NCBI GenBank assembly: GCA_002271215.1
Contig: CP018628.1
Span: 558,001 to 622,000 of the forward strand
DNA length: 64,000 bases
Reading direction: 5' to 3'
Source: Lelliottia jeotgali
GTDB lineage: Bacteria; Pseudomonadota; Gammaproteobacteria; Enterobacterales; Enterobacteriaceae
The notes beneath the pieces were generated by a model. The model was not told where the DNA came from, made no database searches, and saw only the letters and a list, made by a program, of their open reading frames with translations. The position numbers and the translations under genes were made by a program. Shown here piece after piece: positions 26,395 through 35,048 of this stretch; position 1 is the stretch's first letter, and each line of letters opens with the position of its first letter.

Positions 26395-27000
26395 ATGCAC
26401 TTCACACAGAAAGATCGCGATAACACAGAAAAATCAGAAGGGAAAAACGGCGCGGGCGCACTGCAGCAGAAATTACTCGAGTCCCGCTCGATTATTATTT
26501 CCGGCGAAATCGACCAGGCGCTGGCGGAAAAAGTGATCACTCAATTGATCCTGCTGCAAAGCGTGAGCAACGATCCGATCAAGCTGTACATCAACAGCCA
26601 GGGCGGTCACGTGGAAGCGGGTGATACCATCCATGACTTTATCAAGTTCATCCGCCCGGACGTGCACGTGATCGGCACCGGTTGGGTGGCGAGCGCCGGG
26701 ATCACGATTTTCCTGGCGGCGAAAAAAGAGCACCGTTACGCGCTGCCAAACACCCGCTTCATGATCCATCAGCCGCTGGGCGGCGTGCGTGGTCAGGCCA
26801 CGGATATCGAGATCGAAGCGCGCGAGATCATCCGCATGCTGGATCGCGTGAACAAACTGATTGCTGATGCGACCGGTCAGCCGCTCGAAAAAGTGAAAAA
26901 AGACACCGACCGTAACTTCTGGATGTCTCCTGCCGAAGCGCTGGATTACGGCATTGTCGGCAAGATCATCACCCAGTATGACGAGCTGAAACTGGATTAA
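26395..27000 (+). CDS. ClpP-like serine protease
   Basis: A 201-residue paralogue of the ClpP peptidase. The catalytic triad appears intact: S100 in GWVASAGITIF, H125 in RFMIHQPLGG and an aspartate at 170 or 172. The segment around the serine differs from ordinary ClpP (GQAASM), so it is not the housekeeping copy. The N-terminal 20 residues are charged and lack a propeptide-like pattern. The gene is free-standing with GAGG upstream and a terminator hairpin downstream. Whether it pairs with ClpA or ClpX is unknown. Confidence 0.85.
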   Translation: MHFTQKDRDNTEKSEGKNGAGALQQKLLESRSIIISGEIDQALAEKVITQLILLQSVSNDPIKLYINSQGGHVEAGDTIHDFIKFIRPDVHVIGTGWVASAGITIFLAAKKEHRYALPNTRFMIHQPLGGVRGQATDIEIEAREIIRMLDRVNKLIADATGQPLEKVKKDTDRNFWMSPAEALDYGIVGKIITQYDELKLD

Positions 27001-27326: not shown

Positions 27327-27531
27327 ATCAGGCCTCATGACAGCGCGCTATTACGTTAACGATATAAGTCGCTAACGAACGGGCGATAACCATAAAGGCT
27401 GAAACTGTCACGGTGTGTCATGCGAACGGCTGAAGGACGAGGGATTTGGCGGGCAATTGACCCACGACAAAGCAGCCGCCCGGCCCGTCTCTCATAATCG
27501 CACCTGTTTCCCTTCTCACTGGTGCTTTCCC

Positions 27532-28653
27532 ATGGCGTATCAACTGAATCTCAACTGGCCGGAATTTCTCGAAAAATACTGGCAAAAACAACCCGTTGTG
27601 CTGAAAAATGCCTTCCCGAATTTTGTCGATCCGATCACGCCTGATGAGCTGGCGGGCCTGGCGATGGAGCCGGAAGTCGACAGCCGTCTGGTCAGCCATT
27701 TCAACGGTGAGTGGCAGGCGAGCAACGGTCCATTCGAACATTTTGACGGTCTGGGCGAAACTGGCTGGTCGCTGCTGGCGCAGGCGGTGAATCACTGGCA
27801 CATGCCGTCCGCTGAGCTGGTGCGTCCGTTCCGCGTGCTGCCGGACTGGCGTCTGGACGATCTGATGATCTCCTATTCCGTTCCGGGTGGCGGCGTTGGC
27901 CCGCATATCGATCAGTACGATGTCTTTATCATTCAGGGCATGGGGAGCCGCCGCTGGCGCGTGGGCGATAAACTGCCGATGCGTCAGTTCTGTCCGCATC
28001 CGGCGCTGCTGCACGTCGATCCGTTTACGCCAATTATCGACGAAGATCTGGAACCGGGCGATATCCTCTATATTCCGCCAGGATTCCCGCACGATGGTTT
28101 TACCCATGAAACCGCGCTGAACTACTCCGTCGGTTTCCGTGGGCCAAACGGTCGTGACCTCATCAGCAGTTTTGCAGATTACGCGCTGGAAAACGATCTG
28201 GGCGGCGAGCACTACAGCGATCCGGATCTGACCTGTCGCGAACACCCTGGTCGCGTGGAACAGTACGAGCTCGATCGCCTGCGCAGCATGATGATCGAGA
28301 TGATCAGCCAGCCGGAAGATTTCAAAAAATGGTTCGGCAGCTTTGTCAGCACTCCGCGTCATGAACTGGATATCGCAGCAGCAGAACCGGCCTATGAACC
28401 GGAAGAAGTGCTGGATGCGCTGCTGGGCGGTGAAACGCTGTCTCGTCTGAGCGGCCTGCGCGTATTGAACGTGAGCGGCAGCTTCTTTATCAACAGCGAA
28501 CAGCTGGAAACGGTGGATGCGAAAGCCGCTGACGTGCTGTGCCGTTACACCGAATTTGGCCAGGACGAACTGGGCGACGCGTTGCAAAATCCGGCGTTTG
28601 TCGCGGAGCTGACGGATTTGATTAACCAGGGTTACTGGTTCTTCGAAGAGTAA
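27532..28653 (+). CDS. roxA: Ribosomal protein uL16 3-hydroxylase RoxA (YcfD)
   Basis: A 373-residue JmjC-type 2-oxoglutarate/Fe(II) oxygenase that hydroxylates an arginine of ribosomal protein L16. The iron ligands are H125, D127 (GPHIDQYD) and H187 (PGFPHDGF), at the positions known for the E. coli enzyme. The start MAYQLNLNWPEF at 27532 matches the family; the frame extends upstream without support. In E. coli K-12 this gene is next to phoQ, so its place here is a rearrangement or an additional copy. A strong hairpin follows. Confidence 0.92.
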   Translation: MAYQLNLNWPEFLEKYWQKQPVVLKNAFPNFVDPITPDELAGLAMEPEVDSRLVSHFNGEWQASNGPFEHFDGLGETGWSLLAQAVNHWHMPSAELVRPFRVLPDWRLDDLMISYSVPGGGVGPHIDQYDVFIIQGMGSRRWRVGDKLPMRQFCPHPALLHVDPFTPIIDEDLEPGDILYIPPGFPHDGFTHETALNYSVGFRGPNGRDLISSFADYALENDLGGEHYSDPDLTCREHPGRVEQYELDRLRSMMIEMISQPEDFKKWFGSFVSTPRHELDIAAAEPAYEPEEVLDALLGGETLSRLSGLRVLNVSGSFFINSEQLETVDAKAADVLCRYTEFGQDELGDALQNPAFVAELTDLINQGYWFFEE

Positions 28654-28660
28654 TTTGCAG

Positions 28661-28695
28661 GAAGCGGGACAGGCTGATTAAGCCTGTCCCGCTTC
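28661..28695. terminator. Bidirectional terminator hairpin
   Basis: A 15-pair perfect stem GAAGCGGGACAGGCT/AGCCTGTCCCGCTTC between roxA and the convergent five-gene operon. Confidence 0.75.
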
Positions 28696-28703
28696 GGCAT
28701 GAC

Positions 28704-29681
28704 TTACGCGGCGATGAATAGAACCTCATCATTTTCAGCGTTAAGTAATTGCAGAACTTCTGGTTTCGACTCAGCAAGACGTAATAATTCAGTCTGGTAA
28801 GCGAGAGCTTCAACATGGGCTTTGCGGAAGTTAAGAAAATCGATCAATTTCCCGCCGTCACCACGCGTTAACTGATGCAGAGTTGCAGGCGACTGGCTCA
28901 GGTCGTCTACGATGGATTGGTTGATTTCCAGCCAGTCGTTCTGCAAGGTTTCTAAAGACTGTACCGCAAACTTCGCTGCCCCAATTTTATGCTGAATATA
29001 ACTACGGAACAGACCGAGGTGCATGAAGCGTTCCTGAAGGATGCTCAATTCATGTAACGAATGATAAAAGGCTGGCTCGTTGGCGGCTTTGGCGGTGTTT
29101 TTTAACATCAGCCGGGTAAATTCGTATTGTTGGTTTAACGGATGAATGAGCGATTGCAGCTGAGTTATTTCGCCCATTTCTACAAATTGCTTTGCAGTAC
29201 TGATGACGGCATTGAAGCTGGCAATATCACGAAAAGCTTCTCGTTGCCGGGCATCAAGCGCCAGCGAAAGTAACGCATCAAGTTGCTGGGTGTGACCCTG
29301 AAGAACTGAATCAATATGATTGAGCTTACGGCATACAATCACGAATCCCGCCGCAGAAACGGCCAGGTTTAAACCCGAAAGGGCGAGGTTGGCACTTTGC
29401 AACGTTTGAAGTGTTCCCAGTGAACCCTGGATGGATTCAATCCCATTTTGTAGATTATCTAATTTCGATGAGAGAACCTTTTTCAGGTTTTCAATTCCTT
29501 CCTGCGCCTTCTCTGCATTATTGGGGAAAATAAGATGGGCGACGATGCTTCCCGCGTTATCGTGGCCTTTCGCAATGCGAACGACACCGCCATAAATTTT
29601 ATAAAGCCCATTTTGTATCCCTTCAAGGATCTCGGGAGACTGCTTAATGGTGCGATACAACATTTCTGCTTCTACAGACAT
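28704..29681 (-). CDS. Unknown coiled-coil-like protein, last gene of the CrfC/patatin operon
   Basis: A 325-residue protein from ATG 29681 (MSVEAEMLYRTIKQS), with GGAGA upstream. Residues about 50-85 form a heptad-rich helix (ENLKKVLSSKLDNLQNGIES), followed by a hydrophobic segment (ALSGLNLAVSAAGFVIV) that could insert in a membrane, then further long helices. It overlaps the upstream gene by ten bases. I do not recognise the family. The helix-membrane-helix plan and operon partners suggest a membrane-associated structural or pore component; that is inference. Confidence 0.7.
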   Translation of the reverse strand: MSVEAEMLYRTIKQSPEILEGIQNGLYKIYGGVVRIAKGHDNAGSIVAHLIFPNNAEKAQEGIENLKKVLSSKLDNLQNGIESIQGSLGTLQTLQSANLALSGLNLAVSAAGFVIVCRKLNHIDSVLQGHTQQLDALLSLALDARQREAFRDIASFNAVISTAKQFVEMGEITQLQSLIHPLNQQYEFTRLMLKNTAKAANEPAFYHSLHELSILQERFMHLGLFRSYIQHKIGAAKFAVQSLETLQNDWLEINQSIVDDLSQSPATLHQLTRGDGGKLIDFLNFRKAHVEALAYQTELLRLAESKPEVLQLLNAENDEVLFIAA

Positions 29682-30481
29682 TGTCTCATCTCCGAACAAA
29701 ATTGGTCTGTTTGCTGCTGAATATTTTCCAGACGAATGCATGCGATACGAATGACGGCAGGTATGGTGACACGATAGGCGGGACCGGTCAGATCGTAAGT
29801 CAGCCAGGCGGCAGAGACGACTGCGGCAATGGGGTTAAGCATTGCAGGTGCTCTGCCAGCGATAACTTTACCCAGGGCGGGTAATCCGGCCTTTGCGGCC
29901 AACTTTATCGCGGGAACCATCGCGGAATTGACCATCCTGGATATGGCGTAGGGACCACACGAAGAAATAAGTAAAGAGACCAGCTCAGATGTTTTGTCTT
30001 GCTTCAGGAGATGCTCAATTTGCTCGCGACTGACATTAAGCTGATTGCTGGAAAATAATCTGATCAGTTCTTCTTGTTGACCTTCCTTCAGCGACTTGCT
30101 CAATATGTTCTCGATAATGGCTCGCTCAATCTCCAGCAACGTCATTTTTTTACTGACTTTTGCACCCAGTTTTTTAGCGACATCTTTAGCGACAACATCA
30201 TAGGGAATATTCGTTCTTTTACGAAAGGCATTTGCCACCGTATTCCCCCCAAACATGCAGATCTCGCTGGCTAACGCCAACGCCATCTTTTGCCTGTTAT
30301 TTTGGCGTTTGTATTGCATGAGCATTTTCTTCGCTGATTCTGTCAGCGATACACGGCCACGCCCTTCATCAGTAATAATATCTGCCAGCGCATTCAGATC
30401 GGCTATTGATGCACAGGACAGCAATTTTTCGAGCGGGAGTTCCCGCTCTATAAGCCATTCAGAAGTGGACAGGTTCTCCAT
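29672..30481 (-). CDS. DUF3944/YaaW-family protein
   Basis: A 269-residue protein. The N-terminus has the DUF3944-like pattern (KLLSCASIADLNALADIITDEGRGR) and the C-terminus matches YaaW (GPAYRVTIPAVIRIACIRL). A central FGGNTVANAFR segment is also shared with YaaW. There are hydrophobic stretches near 205-235. YaaW has no firm function. AGGAG lies seven bases before the ATG; the gene follows the patatin gene by 21 bases and overlaps the next, so it is part of the same operon. Confidence 0.75.
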   Translation of the reverse strand: MENLSTSEWLIERELPLEKLLSCASIADLNALADIITDEGRGRVSLTESAKKMLMQYKRQNNRQKMALALASEICMFGGNTVANAFRKRTNIPYDVVAKDVAKKLGAKVSKKMTLLEIERAIIENILSKSLKEGQQEELIRLFSSNQLNVSREQIEHLLKQDKTSELVSLLISSCGPYAISRMVNSAMVPAIKLAAKAGLPALGKVIAGRAPAMLNPIAAVVSAAWLTYDLTGPAYRVTIPAVIRIACIRLENIQQQTDQFCSEMRQCL

Positions 30482-30502
30482 TTTTTTACTCCTGTTACTG
30501 GA

Positions 30503-31576
30503 TTACTTTAAACGTTCCATAGCACGACTGAGCGTTGCATTCGCCGCATCATTTCTCTTTAAGCTGGTGGCAAGCGCCGCTTCTGAATGATGGTGTGTCT
30601 GACGGGCTTGCAGAGGCTTCCGAATGCGTTCAATCGCCGCCAACGTATCCTGATAACCTTGATCAATCCAGGACTCGATGTGCATTGCTTTAAAGCCCAG
30701 CAGATCCTTTGCCCCACCCAACATTCCGTCATGACGACGTAACGTATTTTGCGGGCGTATTTCCATTACGATAGTTTCAGGGAATTGATGACGATCCCAC
30801 AGAGAAGCATCACTAAGATGTGTCACGATAACCATGTCACAGCCAGCCTCAACTAAAGGCGTCACCGGCGTATTACCCTGCATGCTCGCCCAGCCTCCCA
30901 TGCCCCCGTCGCTATATTGAGTACCATTGATATGACGAGGTTTAAACAATAGAGGGAGCGCGGCAGACGCCAGCAATGCTTCTTTTTGCTGGTCTATCGG
31001 CAGACTTTGGACATGATGAAACTCAGAATCCCGGGTTGAGCCAAGGCCAAATTCAGCAGCAATGCAGTTCACAATATCCTGCACGCCGCCTTCCGTCGGA
31101 TACAAAGAAACGTAAAGCGGCAAACCGGAGGATAACGAATGAACGTCCAGATAGCGGTTCATCAAGTCAATAAGCGGCTGATCGGAGAGCAAAGGTTCGT
31201 TTTGCAGGCCTGTGATACCGGTCATCACGCCAGCCTGGTGAAGAAGAGAGCTGAGCAGGCCGCCGGCCTTACTCAAAATCGGCGACAGGCCCATCCCGAT
31301 GCCAAACTGCGCCAGCAGAGAAATATAAACGGAGTTATTCACGGAAAGAACATTGCCATTCCCGAGATGCGTCCAAATCTCTGCCATTCTTTCTGATGCC
31401 TGCAGCAGGTCCGAAGAGGAGGCCACGATGGCACCATTCAGTGCGCCAATGCTCGCGCCGGAGACGACATGCACATCGGTTCCTGATTCTGCCAGTGCTT
31501 TAACAACGCCGACCTCATACGCGCCAATGGCTCCGCCGCCAGAAAGCGCCAGGCCGACTTTCATGGGTTGAGTCAT
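30503..31576 (-). CDS. Patatin-like phospholipase
   Basis: A 357-residue lipid hydrolase of the patatin family. The oxyanion loop is SGGGAIGAY (12-20), the nucleophile S42 is in GASIG and the dyad aspartate D223 is in SDGGMGG, so the enzyme should be active on membrane lipids. There is no signal peptide, so it acts from the cytoplasm. It overlaps the RdcB-family gene by four bases (ATGA). Patatins serve as membrane-damaging effectors in several phage-defence systems, which makes this operon notable. Confidence 0.88.
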   Translation of the reverse strand: MTQPMKVGLALSGGGAIGAYEVGVVKALAESGTDVHVVSGASIGALNGAIVASSSDLLQASERMAEIWTHLGNGNVLSVNNSVYISLLAQFGIGMGLSPILSKAGGLLSSLLHQAGVMTGITGLQNEPLLSDQPLIDLMNRYLDVHSLSSGLPLYVSLYPTEGGVQDIVNCIAAEFGLGSTRDSEFHHVQSLPIDQQKEALLASAALPLLFKPRHINGTQYSDGGMGGWASMQGNTPVTPLVEAGCDMVIVTHLSDASLWDRHQFPETIVMEIRPQNTLRRHDGMLGGAKDLLGFKAMHIESWIDQGYQDTLAAIERIRKPLQARQTHHHSEAALATSLKRNDAANATLSRAMERLK

Positions 31577-32475
31577 GCTATCTCCTTATAGAAGAGTTCA
31601 TCCACCATGCTGTCAGCAATGCGTTCAGCAGAACTTAAACGCGGCATCCGCAGAGGTAATACGTCGTACTGTTGAGTCGTTGACCAAACAACAGGGTGAG
31701 CATCTTCATCACACCAGTCGGCCATCCAGTTGATGGTTTCTGGCCAGTCATTGTGTTGAATCTGCCCCGATTTCCAGGCCAGCCAGCTTTGGGTATCGTG
31801 TCGAACCAATGCACTGCTATTGTGGTCCAGGGCTAATTGCGTTAATGCCTTATTCTTGAGGATGGTGAGCATCTGATTGACTTGATGCGTTTCGCCATGA
31901 CGAATGACATCGCCAAATGCCCCCCAACGCAGCTCTTCCAGGGCGACGTAACAACGCGCCGCCAGCGGTAGAGAGGCGAAACGGCCAGCACTCCAACCCG
32001 AAAAGACCTGGTCGAGGTGCAACTGGCTACGCTGAAGCATATCCACCCGGTTGAGTTGTTGCTCAAGGCTGCTGAGTTTATTGTTCACCTGTTGTGCCAG
32101 GGTCGTTAACTGCTCGCGTGTATCTGCGGAAAAATGAGCGATAGCGGCGGTATCATCAATCAGCGATGTGACGCGATCGTTCACTTGAGCGAGGGCATAG
32201 TTGGTTGTCGCAAGCGATGAAGTCAGCTCTGTAAGCCAGGTCAGTGAGGCTTCAACACCGTCCGCGAGGGAAGCATTGATCGAATGCTGACGAGCAGACG
32301 CATGACCGTTTATTCCTTCTTTTAGCCTTAAGAAAAAGCGGCGATCTTTTTGCTGACGCAGATGATCTTTTACAACATCGATTCCATTTGCGAAATCAAC
32401 GATAAATTTTTCCGGCAGGCATGCCAGAATCTGGCATGCCTCGTGTTGTGGAAAGACTTCCTGAAACGTGGCCAT
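31573..32475 (-). CDS. RdcB-family (YjcZ-like) protein
   Basis: A 300-residue protein of the family of E. coli YjcZ/RdcB, described as acting with the dynamin-like RdcA (CrfC/YjdA) on the diguanylate cyclase DgcN. It has long helices with a coiled-coil-like stretch (ALAQVNDRVTSLIDDTAAI and QLTTLAQQVNNKLSSLEQQL) and a C-terminal domain rich in tryptophan. It overlaps the dynamin stop by one base (TAATG), matching the yjdA-yjcZ order in E. coli. Confidence 0.75.
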   Translation of the reverse strand: MATFQEVFPQHEACQILACLPEKFIVDFANGIDVVKDHLRQQKDRRFFLRLKEGINGHASARQHSINASLADGVEASLTWLTELTSSLATTNYALAQVNDRVTSLIDDTAAIAHFSADTREQLTTLAQQVNNKLSSLEQQLNRVDMLQRSQLHLDQVFSGWSAGRFASLPLAARCYVALEELRWGAFGDVIRHGETHQVNQMLTILKNKALTQLALDHNSSALVRHDTQSWLAWKSGQIQHNDWPETINWMADWCDEDAHPVVWSTTQQYDVLPLRMPRLSSAERIADSMVDELFYKEIA

Positions 32476-34859
32476 TACAGTAAAGGCTCCAGTTCTTCTT
32501 TCAGGGCTTTACTATCACGGATCATCTCGGGTGTGAGCTGCTTCAGTTCCTGCAAGCGCTCGGTAAGTTGTTCTTGTTCGAATTGATTATTTTTATGATC
32601 TTCTGTGCTTTGTATTAATGTATTACGCAGCTGCTCTACTTTGCTTTTGAAAGCAGTGAAGAAGATCTCAATCTCTTTGAGGATTGGCTTGTTGATATGG
32701 CTATCTATCGCCAGATTCATCTCTTTAAAATGCTGTAAAGTCTGTTTCATCACCGCATCTCTGATTTTATGAATATCTACGACGCTTCGGGTCACATTCA
32801 CGCTGTAATCTTCCCAGCCCCAGTCATCGGTATTAAACCATCGACAGACTGTTCCCCAGGCGCCTTTTGAACGACGGCTACGCGTTTCGCTGTAGGTTTT
32901 CTCTTCCAGCAAATTGGTCATGCGCGTGGTGATCGAAAGGTTGGTTTGCAGCTCCTGAACTTTTGGGAAGTTAATGCTTACGGTAAAACCATCGTCCTCA
33001 AGACGAGTATTAATCTGATGCGCAATGCGGTCGACAGCCTGAATGGCATTCCCCTGGAAACTGTCTGCGATACCATTCACTATTTGACTGAGCGTTGGCT
33101 TAATTTTATGTTCTGTTTCTGCAAGTAAATCTGTCACCGATGTTTCAATTTGCTCGATAAACTTAACGGCATCACTTTGGCTGGTGAATTTGACCTCTGG
33201 GTTATTCGGGTCGAAATCCTGCTCCCGGGTTGTGGTATTACCCTTCAGACCCCGAACAATTGAACCGATTAGGCTGACATTTAATGGCACCCGGGTATTC
33301 TGGAGGGCGAGTTCTTCTTTTTCTTTACGCTTCCCATTCTTGAAATATTCATCAAGATCGCTGTTCAGTTTTATTTCAGCCTGGCGGAGTAGCGCATCTG
33401 TTTCATGAGTAATCCCCTTCATCGCGCGCTTAACTTCCGCATCCACATCTTTCTGGCAGGTACTGATGCTATCGATATCACTGAGTAGCCCGGTGATCTG
33501 CATTTGTAATGCCTGAATGCTGGTCTTCAGCCCCTGGTGGCGGATTGAAAGATACTCGTTGGCATTTTCAGCATTTTGCACCAATTTGGCGGCGGCGGAA
33601 TCGACGGCAAGAGCGGCGGCTTTGGCATGCGCGGCCTGAATAACTTCGGTAATTAATTTATCAAATAACGAACGACGCCATATGCTGCCGGCGCTCGCAA
33701 TAACACGCTCTTTATCGGCGAGTACTGACTCTTCCCACGCATAGCCAAATGCTAATTGCGCGAAATCTTCCACCCACTCTTCATTTACTGAGAGTTCGCC
33801 GTTCTGGCTGATCACACTACGCGCCCGGTTAGCTAAAAACGCATGACGAGAGGAACCTGGGTAAACACGATCGCTGCTTAGCGCGCCATTTTTAAGCATG
33901 GCAGGGACCGTCTGCTTCACTGTCTCGGCGGTATCGCTATTGCGATCTTTCTGATCAAATTTATTAACGAGTATAAACAGTCGGCCTGCGGCAACTTCGG
34001 CAATGTCATTCAGTTCCTGACGAACTTGCTGATCTGCCTCGGAATTTAATTGTGTGTAATCCATCACGGCAAGCACAGCGGACGCTTTTTGTAGCTGATC
34101 GCGCATCATCGCTTGTAATTTGGGTTGGCCCGCTTCATTTGGTCCTGGGGTGTCGAGCAGTGTCAGCGTGCCCTGGCTATCGTCCAATCCGTTCAGATGG
34201 CTGAATTCAACTTCGATGACCGGAAGTTCGTGAACCTCTTCATAGGATTCAAACGGGAATTCAACGCCCAGTGCTGTTGCAAGGCGAACCAGATCGTTTA
34301 GCGAGGCCAGACATTTGAAAATTTCTGCTTCACCGCAATAGTCATTTTTAAGCCAGCTGTCATCTGCGGCAATACTCAACAACTTGCGTTTTTCCTGGTC
34401 TTTATTCAGCTCAAGGACCTTTTTCTTACCCTCTTCAGTGGTGATGGCTTTGTTTAAGGTCTTCAGCAGAGAGTGAATAGGTTCAATATTGTTTAGATGT
34501 AAATCCGGTGTGGTTTTTCCCTGAACGTGACGAATAAGCGTAGGAATCGAAGTCATGGGGCGGTTACGATTGGGAAGGATCTCTTTACCCACAATCGCGT
34601 TTATAGAGGTGGATTTGCCGGCTTTCATCGTACCCACAACAGCAAGCACCATCTCCTTGCGTGTTATTTTGGTTTGCTCGCCTTTTAACTCTTCAATTCT
34701 TTTTTTGGCTTTGTCAGTGTTAAAAAGCTGCTCAGTGTGGCTTTGCTTGCTCTCGACGAGGACATTTGGCTCATCAACCATTTTTTCCAGCAAGTTGATA
34801 TTAAGCTGAAGTAACCTTTCTGCCTCGCTACATAACAGAGCAATGTTATTCTCGTGCAT
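32475..34859 (-). CDS. crfC: CrfC/RdcA (YjdA)-family dynamin-like GTPase
   Basis: A 794-residue dynamin-like protein. G1 is GTMKAGKST (76-84), followed by the strongly conserved ILPNRNRPMTSIPTLIRH, G3 is LDTPGPNEAGQ and G4 is VNKFDQKD. Long helical stalk segments follow. E. coli CrfC (742 residues) binds the beta clamp and influences nucleoid positioning, and with RdcB affects c-di-GMP signalling. Here the GTPase heads a five-gene operon including a patatin phospholipase, which E. coli lacks beside yjdA. AAGGAC precedes the ATG. Confidence 0.85.
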   Translation of the reverse strand: MHENNIALLCSEAERLLQLNINLLEKMVDEPNVLVESKQSHTEQLFNTDKAKKRIEELKGEQTKITRKEMVLAVVGTMKAGKSTSINAIVGKEILPNRNRPMTSIPTLIRHVQGKTTPDLHLNNIEPIHSLLKTLNKAITTEEGKKKVLELNKDQEKRKLLSIAADDSWLKNDYCGEAEIFKCLASLNDLVRLATALGVEFPFESYEEVHELPVIEVEFSHLNGLDDSQGTLTLLDTPGPNEAGQPKLQAMMRDQLQKASAVLAVMDYTQLNSEADQQVRQELNDIAEVAAGRLFILVNKFDQKDRNSDTAETVKQTVPAMLKNGALSSDRVYPGSSRHAFLANRARSVISQNGELSVNEEWVEDFAQLAFGYAWEESVLADKERVIASAGSIWRRSLFDKLITEVIQAAHAKAAALAVDSAAAKLVQNAENANEYLSIRHQGLKTSIQALQMQITGLLSDIDSISTCQKDVDAEVKRAMKGITHETDALLRQAEIKLNSDLDEYFKNGKRKEKEELALQNTRVPLNVSLIGSIVRGLKGNTTTREQDFDPNNPEVKFTSQSDAVKFIEQIETSVTDLLAETEHKIKPTLSQIVNGIADSFQGNAIQAVDRIAHQINTRLEDDGFTVSINFPKVQELQTNLSITTRMTNLLEEKTYSETRSRRSKGAWGTVCRWFNTDDWGWEDYSVNVTRSVVDIHKIRDAVMKQTLQHFKEMNLAIDSHINKPILKEIEIFFTAFKSKVEQLRNTLIQSTEDHKNNQFEQEQLTERLQELKQLTPEMIRDSKALKEELEPLL

Positions 34860-35048
34860 TCTTTGTCCTTAAAATTTATTCGCTGTGCTTAATCAAGTAA
34901 TTAACGGCAATTCTCTGGGAAACTTAAGTCCAATTCCCACCTAATTCTGGGGGATTGTAACCCCTGGCAGTGTCAGGGTATGTCAGCGTAGCCTTTGCGC
35001 CGTCGCAATGTTATGGTTCCTGCGCCACCCGCTCACACAAACGCCACC

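Follow-up and report, generated by a model that had tools for sequence, protein, structure and literature searches.

The jumbo phage killer (Juk) system, in which jukA is followed by jukB and which blocks nucleus-forming phages at the early vesicle, has been studied in Pseudomonas aeruginosa. A 2026 review (PMC13282480) describes JukA as a sensor that recognises early phage proteins within the early phage infection vesicle, on which JukB forms tetrameric pores, and states that JukA works with diverse effectors, 'including phospholipases and transcriptional regulators'. In E. coli, RdcB (YjcZ) binds RdcA (YjdA/CrfC), and RdcA/RdcB activates the diguanylate cyclase DgcE via its MASE1 domain; the same study (PMC6510439) further describes RdcA as soluble and reports that the K82A variant is fully functional, that the T103D variant loses function and that GTP appears to inhibit. 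Cyclic oligonucleotide-based anti-phage signalling systems (CBASS) with a CapV-type phospholipase effector have in common with the locus described here a patatin as suspected membrane-damaging effector. The dynamin-family GTPase DynA of Bacillus is linked to phage infection and delays phage lysis (PMC8844932). Features of several of these systems meet in one locus of Lelliottia jeotgali. The window analysed here comprises 64,000 nucleotides (assembly GCA_002271215.1, contig CP018628.1, positions 558,001 to 622,000), and all coordinates are those of the window unless stated otherwise. Five open reading frames (ORFs) at 28704..34859, all in the same direction on the minus strand, code for a dynamin-like GTPase, an RdcB family protein, a patatin, JukA and JukB. 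This locus is fairly likely to represent a horizontally acquired anti-phage cassette, in which an RdcA/RdcB-type GTP switch would gate the patatin and to which JukAB has been added.

In gene order, the junctions comprise overlaps of one and four bases, a gap of 21 bases and an overlap of ten bases, in agreement with the spacing given in the initial annotation. The last value applies if gene 5 starts at 29681. At its full length the gene 5 ORF spans 29741-28704 (345 aa), but the JukB model begins at residue 21 of this ORF and the true start is therefore probably 29681 (325 aa). As a scan for terminator-like sites listed none in the 21-base gap between the patatin gene and jukA, a single transcript is plausible and the five genes form what looks like one transcription unit. 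The family assignments previously made for the first three genes (CrfC/RdcA-like dynamin, RdcB and patatin) are borne out by Pfam and NCBIfam, and a dynamin GTPase gene followed by one for a YjcZ-family protein places the first two with RdcA/RdcB. Gene 1 matches the NCBIfam CrfC equivalog at 5e-179, but its 597 bits lie below the cut-off of 1146, indicating a paralogue of CrfC/RdcA rather than CrfC itself. No PADLOC family, and thus no defence-dynamin model, matches this GTPase at E <= 0.1. Genes 4 and 5, for which Pfam yields no match above cut-off, had been described as a YaaW/DUF3944 protein and a coiled-coil protein; they prove to be JukA and JukB (Table 1). Confidence is high both in the identity of the genes and in their division into two modules, GTPase-RdcB-patatin (hereafter the trio) and JukAB.

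Table 1. Features of the L. jeotgali cassette within the window.
Feature	Position	Strand	Properties
RdcA/CrfC-like dynamin GTPase, gene 1	32475..34859	-	794 aa; Dynamin_N 1e-19 (Pfam)
RdcB (YjcZ family), gene 2	31573..32475	-	300 aa; PF13990 4.9e-69
Patatin phospholipase, gene 3	30503..31576	-	357 aa; PF01734 1.7e-23; GASIG S42, DGG D223
JukA, putative sensor, gene 4	29672..30481	-	269 aa; PADLOC PDLC04112 4.3e-57
JukB, putative pore-forming effector, gene 5	28704..29681	-	325 aa from likely start; PADLOC PDLC04114 6.4e-117
14-bp inverted repeat, possible terminator	28662..28694	.	between jukB stop and JmjC-gene stop
Inserted cassette, about 6.33 kb	28655..34985	.	G+C 0.45-0.53 inside vs 0.53-0.60 outside (1-kb windows)

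The trio extends far beyond Lelliottia. A patatin-profile scan of one genome per species gave at least 445 relatives, of which the best 80 were taken and the first 38 loci (L023-L060) analysed by neighbour search. The GTPase, rdcB and patatin genes are contiguous and in that order in 27 of these 38 best loci, some of the GTPase ORFs being broken or cut by contig ends; among the other 11, L052 holds the GTPase and patatin genes without an rdcB match and ten hold the patatin gene alone, some of them near contig ends. The 27 trio loci belong to at least five phyla and include Gammaproteobacteria, Betaproteobacteria, Campylobacterota, Cyanobacteria, Neomarinimicrobiota, a Gracilibacteria bin and a bin labelled Syntrophomonadaceae. 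The closest relatives are proteins that bear the names Yersinia, Pectobacterium and Kluyvera, among others. Duplicated patatin and fused rdcB-patatin forms are found among the public proteins (P0002, P0024 and P0038), perhaps reflecting recombination between trio copies.

E. coli had been thought to hold only the yjdA-yjcZ pair, which is incorrect: the E. coli-type trio used as query is matched over 80% of its length or more in 2426 of the 5426 complete genomes of this species. Counting matches of any length, there are 3385 places, 3384 of them chromosomal, with up to five per genome. In each of the three E. coli-type regions inspected, yeeS/cbeA/cbtA-type genes follow downstream, and in two of them the trio sits directly behind an Ag43/Cah adhesin gene. 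In E. coli O118, patatin and rdcB are named as island cargo (PMC13182975). On plasmids, a patatin relative occurs in 35 of 72,556 records, and six of the seven plasmid regions read contain the trio. The exception is an Aliarcobacter plasmid (L017, 5288-8978), where two genes without Pfam match precede rdcB and the patatin gene near a Shedu nuclease gene; no GTPase is recognisable there, the dynamin seeming to have been replaced or to be too distant to match. Carriage of the operon by phages was considered and rejected, as the patatin relatives in IMG/VR are distant only (seven loci at 22-29% identity) and a scan for viral JukB, limited to exact short patterns taken from a single sequence, gave no match.

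The three trio proteins change together. Pairwise distances, computed for the L. jeotgali operon and the 26 of 30 trio loci with a GTPase ORF longer than 650 aa, correlate with Mantel r values of 0.914, 0.894 and 0.905 (0/999 permutations as high), to which shared descent contributes. Judged by these distances, the trio co-diverges as a unit. The patatin had been called active-looking on account of S42 and D223, and both residues are indeed invariant, in 20/20 aligned sequences and in 27/27 when the L. jeotgali protein is set beside those of the 26 loci; G13-G15, G40, G44 and G224 are likewise identical in all 27, and G225 is replaced by Cys in three. The operon GTPase carries the G1/G3/G4 motifs, and its P-loop K82 as well as T103 are invariant in 23/23 sequences. 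In the model of the GTPase (mean predicted local distance difference test, pLDDT, 81.9) a GTPase domain and a long helical bundle are accompanied by a beta hairpin (652-695) surrounding a Trp-rich loop, which is conserved in most rows, and the sequence matches the bacterial dynamin-like protein structure 2j68 weakly (3e-5). The RdcB model (mean pLDDT 81.7) shows a single helix at 58-162 and low confidence in the first 90 residues; none of its 16 matches among PDB folds reaches E <= 0.001. A relationship of RdcB to viral spike or fusion proteins was rejected, the PDB sequence matches falling mostly in the long helix and amounting to coiled-coil likeness.

The JukA assignment is supported by two further models besides that in Table 1 (PDLC04111, 3.8e-43; PDLC04113, 9.2e-31), and the JukB model is matched across 323/323 positions in a gene that adjoins jukA. 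A profile of 29 sequences, made from gene 5 and its relatives, matches the solved JukB structure 9jht_A at 3.3e-35 (positions 1-296 of 321), while gene 5 as a single sequence reaches only E 0.055, and the protein is therefore a distant subtype of the known JukB family. For JukA, no solved relative was found at E <= 0.1. A hydrophobic segment in JukB (residues 117-138 of the 345-aa ORF) has a Kyte-Doolittle maximum of 2.05, the highest of the five proteins, followed by that of the patatin at 1.59, just below the threshold of 1.6 used. A kinship between RdcB and JukB was rejected, with a profile comparison probability of 0.4%. A JukB search at class level (E <= 1e-20) returned 1/369, the L. jeotgali genome alone, and one at order level (E <= 0.001) 5/295. 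In a Pseudomonas luteola plasmid, jukAB adjoins type I restriction genes. Two further Juk loci are of note, one in which jukAB lies shortly upstream of a ZorB2-like gene (L159, 5813-10044; 8.5e-100), which together with G306 (below) makes two loci where Juk is found near motor genes of the Zorya type, and one in which jukA is followed by a gene for a 371-aa protein without Pfam match (L155, 4683-6608), possibly another Juk effector.

Apart from this subtype difference, the L. jeotgali locus departs from Juk in that jukAB is joined, on the same strand, to the upstream trio. Searched at E <= 1e-3, the sequence examined around the 27 trio loci contains no relative of jukA or jukB; it reaches 2.5 kb or more past the patatin gene in 20 loci and stops short of that distance in seven. 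Conversely, the stretches examined at seven further jukA loci contain, at the same threshold, no relative of the patatin, of rdcB or of the GTPase, so that the two modules are separable and have been joined here. Their fusion may be commoner than the single case seen. Nor was any DNA match to the L. jeotgali jukAB found in the complete E. coli genomes (n=5426). The five genes could alternatively make up one Juk variant, the patatin being a Juk effector which JukA drives together with JukB, and the GTPase and RdcB serving as remodelling helpers. The short junctions, pointing to one operon, and the phospholipases counted among Juk effectors (PMC13282480) fit such an arrangement, but it is unlikely given the lack of juk relatives in the sequence examined at the trio loci, the lack of relatives of this patatin in the stretches examined at the other jukA loci and the abundance of the trio in E. 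coli genomes without a jukAB match.

In the close relative G349, only 22-26 bp separate the two flanking genes in place of the cassette, which, judged by this comparison, is a recent, horizontal acquisition at a clean site. Conservation of the operon as core genes throughout the genus had been named as a finding that would tell against a defence role, and this was checked for the GTPase: 59/61 genomes of the genus, L. jeotgali included, have a relative at E <= 1e-30, but all of these other than the operon's own show 37-51% identity, the operon version occurring in 1/61 species and hence not being fixed. The JukA model matches in 14/61 genomes of the genus; L. jeotgali gives the best value (4e-56), and none of the others improves on 5e-35. 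The site was compared in 58 of the 60 other genus genomes (all save G334 and G345). The AraC flank lies within 12 kb in 36 of the 58 and is absent in 22, and the gap between flanks in those 36 is 35-36 bp in five, 406-977 bp in 27 and more than 4 kb in four. GmrSD-type gene pairs make up the large inserts in G337, G338 and G298, the call for G298 being based solely on agreement in the lengths and starts of the ORFs. The insert in G306 (L217, 384-7806), whose pieces were searched separately, contains a jukA split by an insertion sequence/transposase, a jukB (PDLC04115, 6.7e-138), an AAA gene, an unnamed gene and ZorA/ZorB-like genes. All five large inserts between these flanks, that of L. jeotgali included, look like defence in their predicted contents.

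Defence-like genes are also found beside the trio elsewhere. The initial annotation proposed looking for enrichment of the five families beside known defence genes. At 1e-10 the 117 trio-flank proteins matched 120 PADLOC models compared with ten for 113 control proteins, a ratio that overstates the effect for reasons considered below. The flank set was drawn from the nearest ORFs, up to three per side and 110-999 aa in length, in 25 of the 27 trio loci (all except L033 and L059, which yielded no such proteins), and the control set from the flanks of 21 of 25 listed distant-patatin loci outside the 38, with four long proteins left out. WYL regulators are located upstream and on the same strand in 6/27 trio loci, directly before the GTPase gene in L043 and L053, directly before a second dynamin gene in L047, and with other ORFs in between in L026, L027 and L060. 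This second dynamin-like ORF in L047 (3930-5525), behind the WYL regulator, directly precedes the trio. WYL regulators of the BrxR family are known to co-localise with phage defence (PMC9122601). One further locus, L041, has ZorE directly upstream of the trio and ZorA behind ZorE (Zorya II). Loci with a WYL regulator are scattered over several branches of the patatin tree, in which an Acinetobacter sequence pairs with one from Actinobacillus, as expected with transfer. With two genes in a characterised anti-phage family, the trio placed near defence genes and WYL regulators, and a site with defence-like inserts, an anti-phage function of the locus can be inferred and is well supported. The trio alone is a strong candidate anti-phage system. 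Of the membrane-damaging anti-phage system envisaged at the outset, the anti-phage part gains from JukAB, the neighbours and the site, whereas the notion of one five-part machine is not supported, the modules being separable.

The trio shares with RdcA-RdcB of E. coli its gene order, both protein families and the K82 and T103 positions, which are also those of CrfC; the E. coli pair differs in lacking a patatin and in acting on DgcE. Outside the operon, at 379-382 kb of the genome, L. jeotgali also possesses a yjdA-yjcZ-type pair of its own. The GTPase of this core pair shows only 38% identity with that of the operon, and the DNA of the pair matches the E. coli genes annotated crfC and rdcB. 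Some match to the core-pair DNA is present in 5369/5426 E. coli genomes, but with cover below 80%, and this was not taken as a count; in the one E. coli genome inspected at this place, proP comes next after crfC-rdcB and there is no patatin gene. In trees of RdcB (36 rows) and the GTPase (35 rows), the core rows, consisting of the family of L. jeotgali and E. coli CrfC/RdcB, form one clade (support 100/99 and 100/100, respectively), which joins the enteric trio clade inside the trio-bearing rows (100/98 and 99/95). The simplest reading of these trees, which were rooted at the midpoint only, contain several weak deep forks and have a long core branch, is that the E. coli-type pair lost its patatin and represents a derived state; if the root were placed on the core branch, the order of events would be the opposite.

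Given this kinship, the trio might be a signalling or biofilm module comparable to RdcA/RdcB and their action on DgcE; the patatin would then function in lipid signalling or in remodelling of the envelope, and JukAB would be a neighbour by chance. Activation of DgcE by the E. coli proteins (PMC6510439) and the adhesin gene adjoining two of the E. coli trio regions agree with such a role. The WYL and Zorya neighbours, the patchy distribution of the trio and the defence-like contents of the site do not, and the genome already has a yjdA-yjcZ pair of its own; a signalling or biofilm function seems improbable.

Under the preferred reading of an anti-phage cassette, two modules would act side by side. 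In the first, the GTPase and RdcB would constitute a switch held off by GTP, as in E. coli RdcA/RdcB. Phage infection would lower GTP or disturb the membrane, the switch would change state and release or recruit the patatin, and the patatin would cut membrane lipids and so stop the infected cell. This GTP-gated lipase is proposed because of the genetics of RdcA/RdcB and the active site of the patatin. In the second module, as known for its relatives, JukA would detect the early jumbo-phage vesicle and JukB would make pores in it. A trigger based on CBASS is not indicated. As initially noted, Pfam, NCBIfam and PADLOC reveal no CBASS-type cyclase among the five proteins, and the patatin matches CBASS effector models weakly only (best 2e-4), the lipase model NF041079 giving 18.2 bits where the cut-off is 200.

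A bolder proposal, which is possible but somewhat short of even chances, is that the trio constitutes a widespread immune system that has so far gone unrecognised and whose phospholipase is gated by a dynamin switch able to sense nucleotides, that RdcA/RdcB is its tamed descendant, deprived of the lipase and rewired to a diguanylate cyclase, and that its merger with JukAB brings a pore former and a lipase together in one operon against phage or host membrane. If true, an operon common in E. coli (nearly half of the complete genomes), at present annotated as 'diguanylate cyclase regulator RdcB family' with dynamin and patatin, would turn out to act against phages and to be triggered on a new principle, namely by a dynamin-type GTP switch in place of a cyclic nucleotide. 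It would also explain the origin of RdcA/RdcB and the presence of a soluble dynamin in a biofilm pathway, and two membrane-attacking systems would be united in one operon.

Several observations weigh against an anti-phage cassette. The E. coli islands read contain no named defence system beside the trio. In species-level samples the trio patatin is rare, occurring at E <= 1e-40 in 2/394 Enterobacterales species representatives, L. jeotgali included, and at E <= 1e-50 in 1/398 of the phylum, the L. jeotgali genome itself; the trio is therefore patchy and not core. The PADLOC ratio overstates the effect because the control loci belong to different phyla, many of the 120 models fall on a protein that other models match as well, and some of the proteins matched resemble housekeeping proteins, such as a 933-aa protein matching the DRT-PolA model and a DndA/SspA match that may be a cysteine desulfurase. 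When the trio-flank proteins were scanned singly, 9/20 had no match. Among the papers listed in searches of the open full-text literature, none was seen to test this trio against phage, subscription papers lying mostly outside this search, and the dynamins of a different dynamin-carrying island were inactive against the phages used (PMC12595487). Membrane repair or lysis delay in the manner of Bacillus DynA, with the GTPase patching membranes damaged by phage and the patatin removing damaged lipids without suicide of the cell, is very unlikely: DynA does delay phage lysis (PMC8844932) and the Trp-rich loop at the modelled hairpin could bind membrane, but the operon GTPase has other partners and matches no PADLOC model at E <= 0.1, E. 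coli RdcA is described as soluble (PMC6510439), and a lipase is, in our judgement, an odd partner for repair.

Among the minor features of the region, the 14-bp inverted repeat downstream of jukB was read by eye, has no clear T run and is absent from the list of the terminator scan. The flanking JmjC/RoxA-like gene (27415-28653) has a second copy in the L. jeotgali genome at about 74% DNA identity, and similar second copies occur in congeners. A gene coding for a ClpP-family protease is located close to the insertion site, at 26395-27000.

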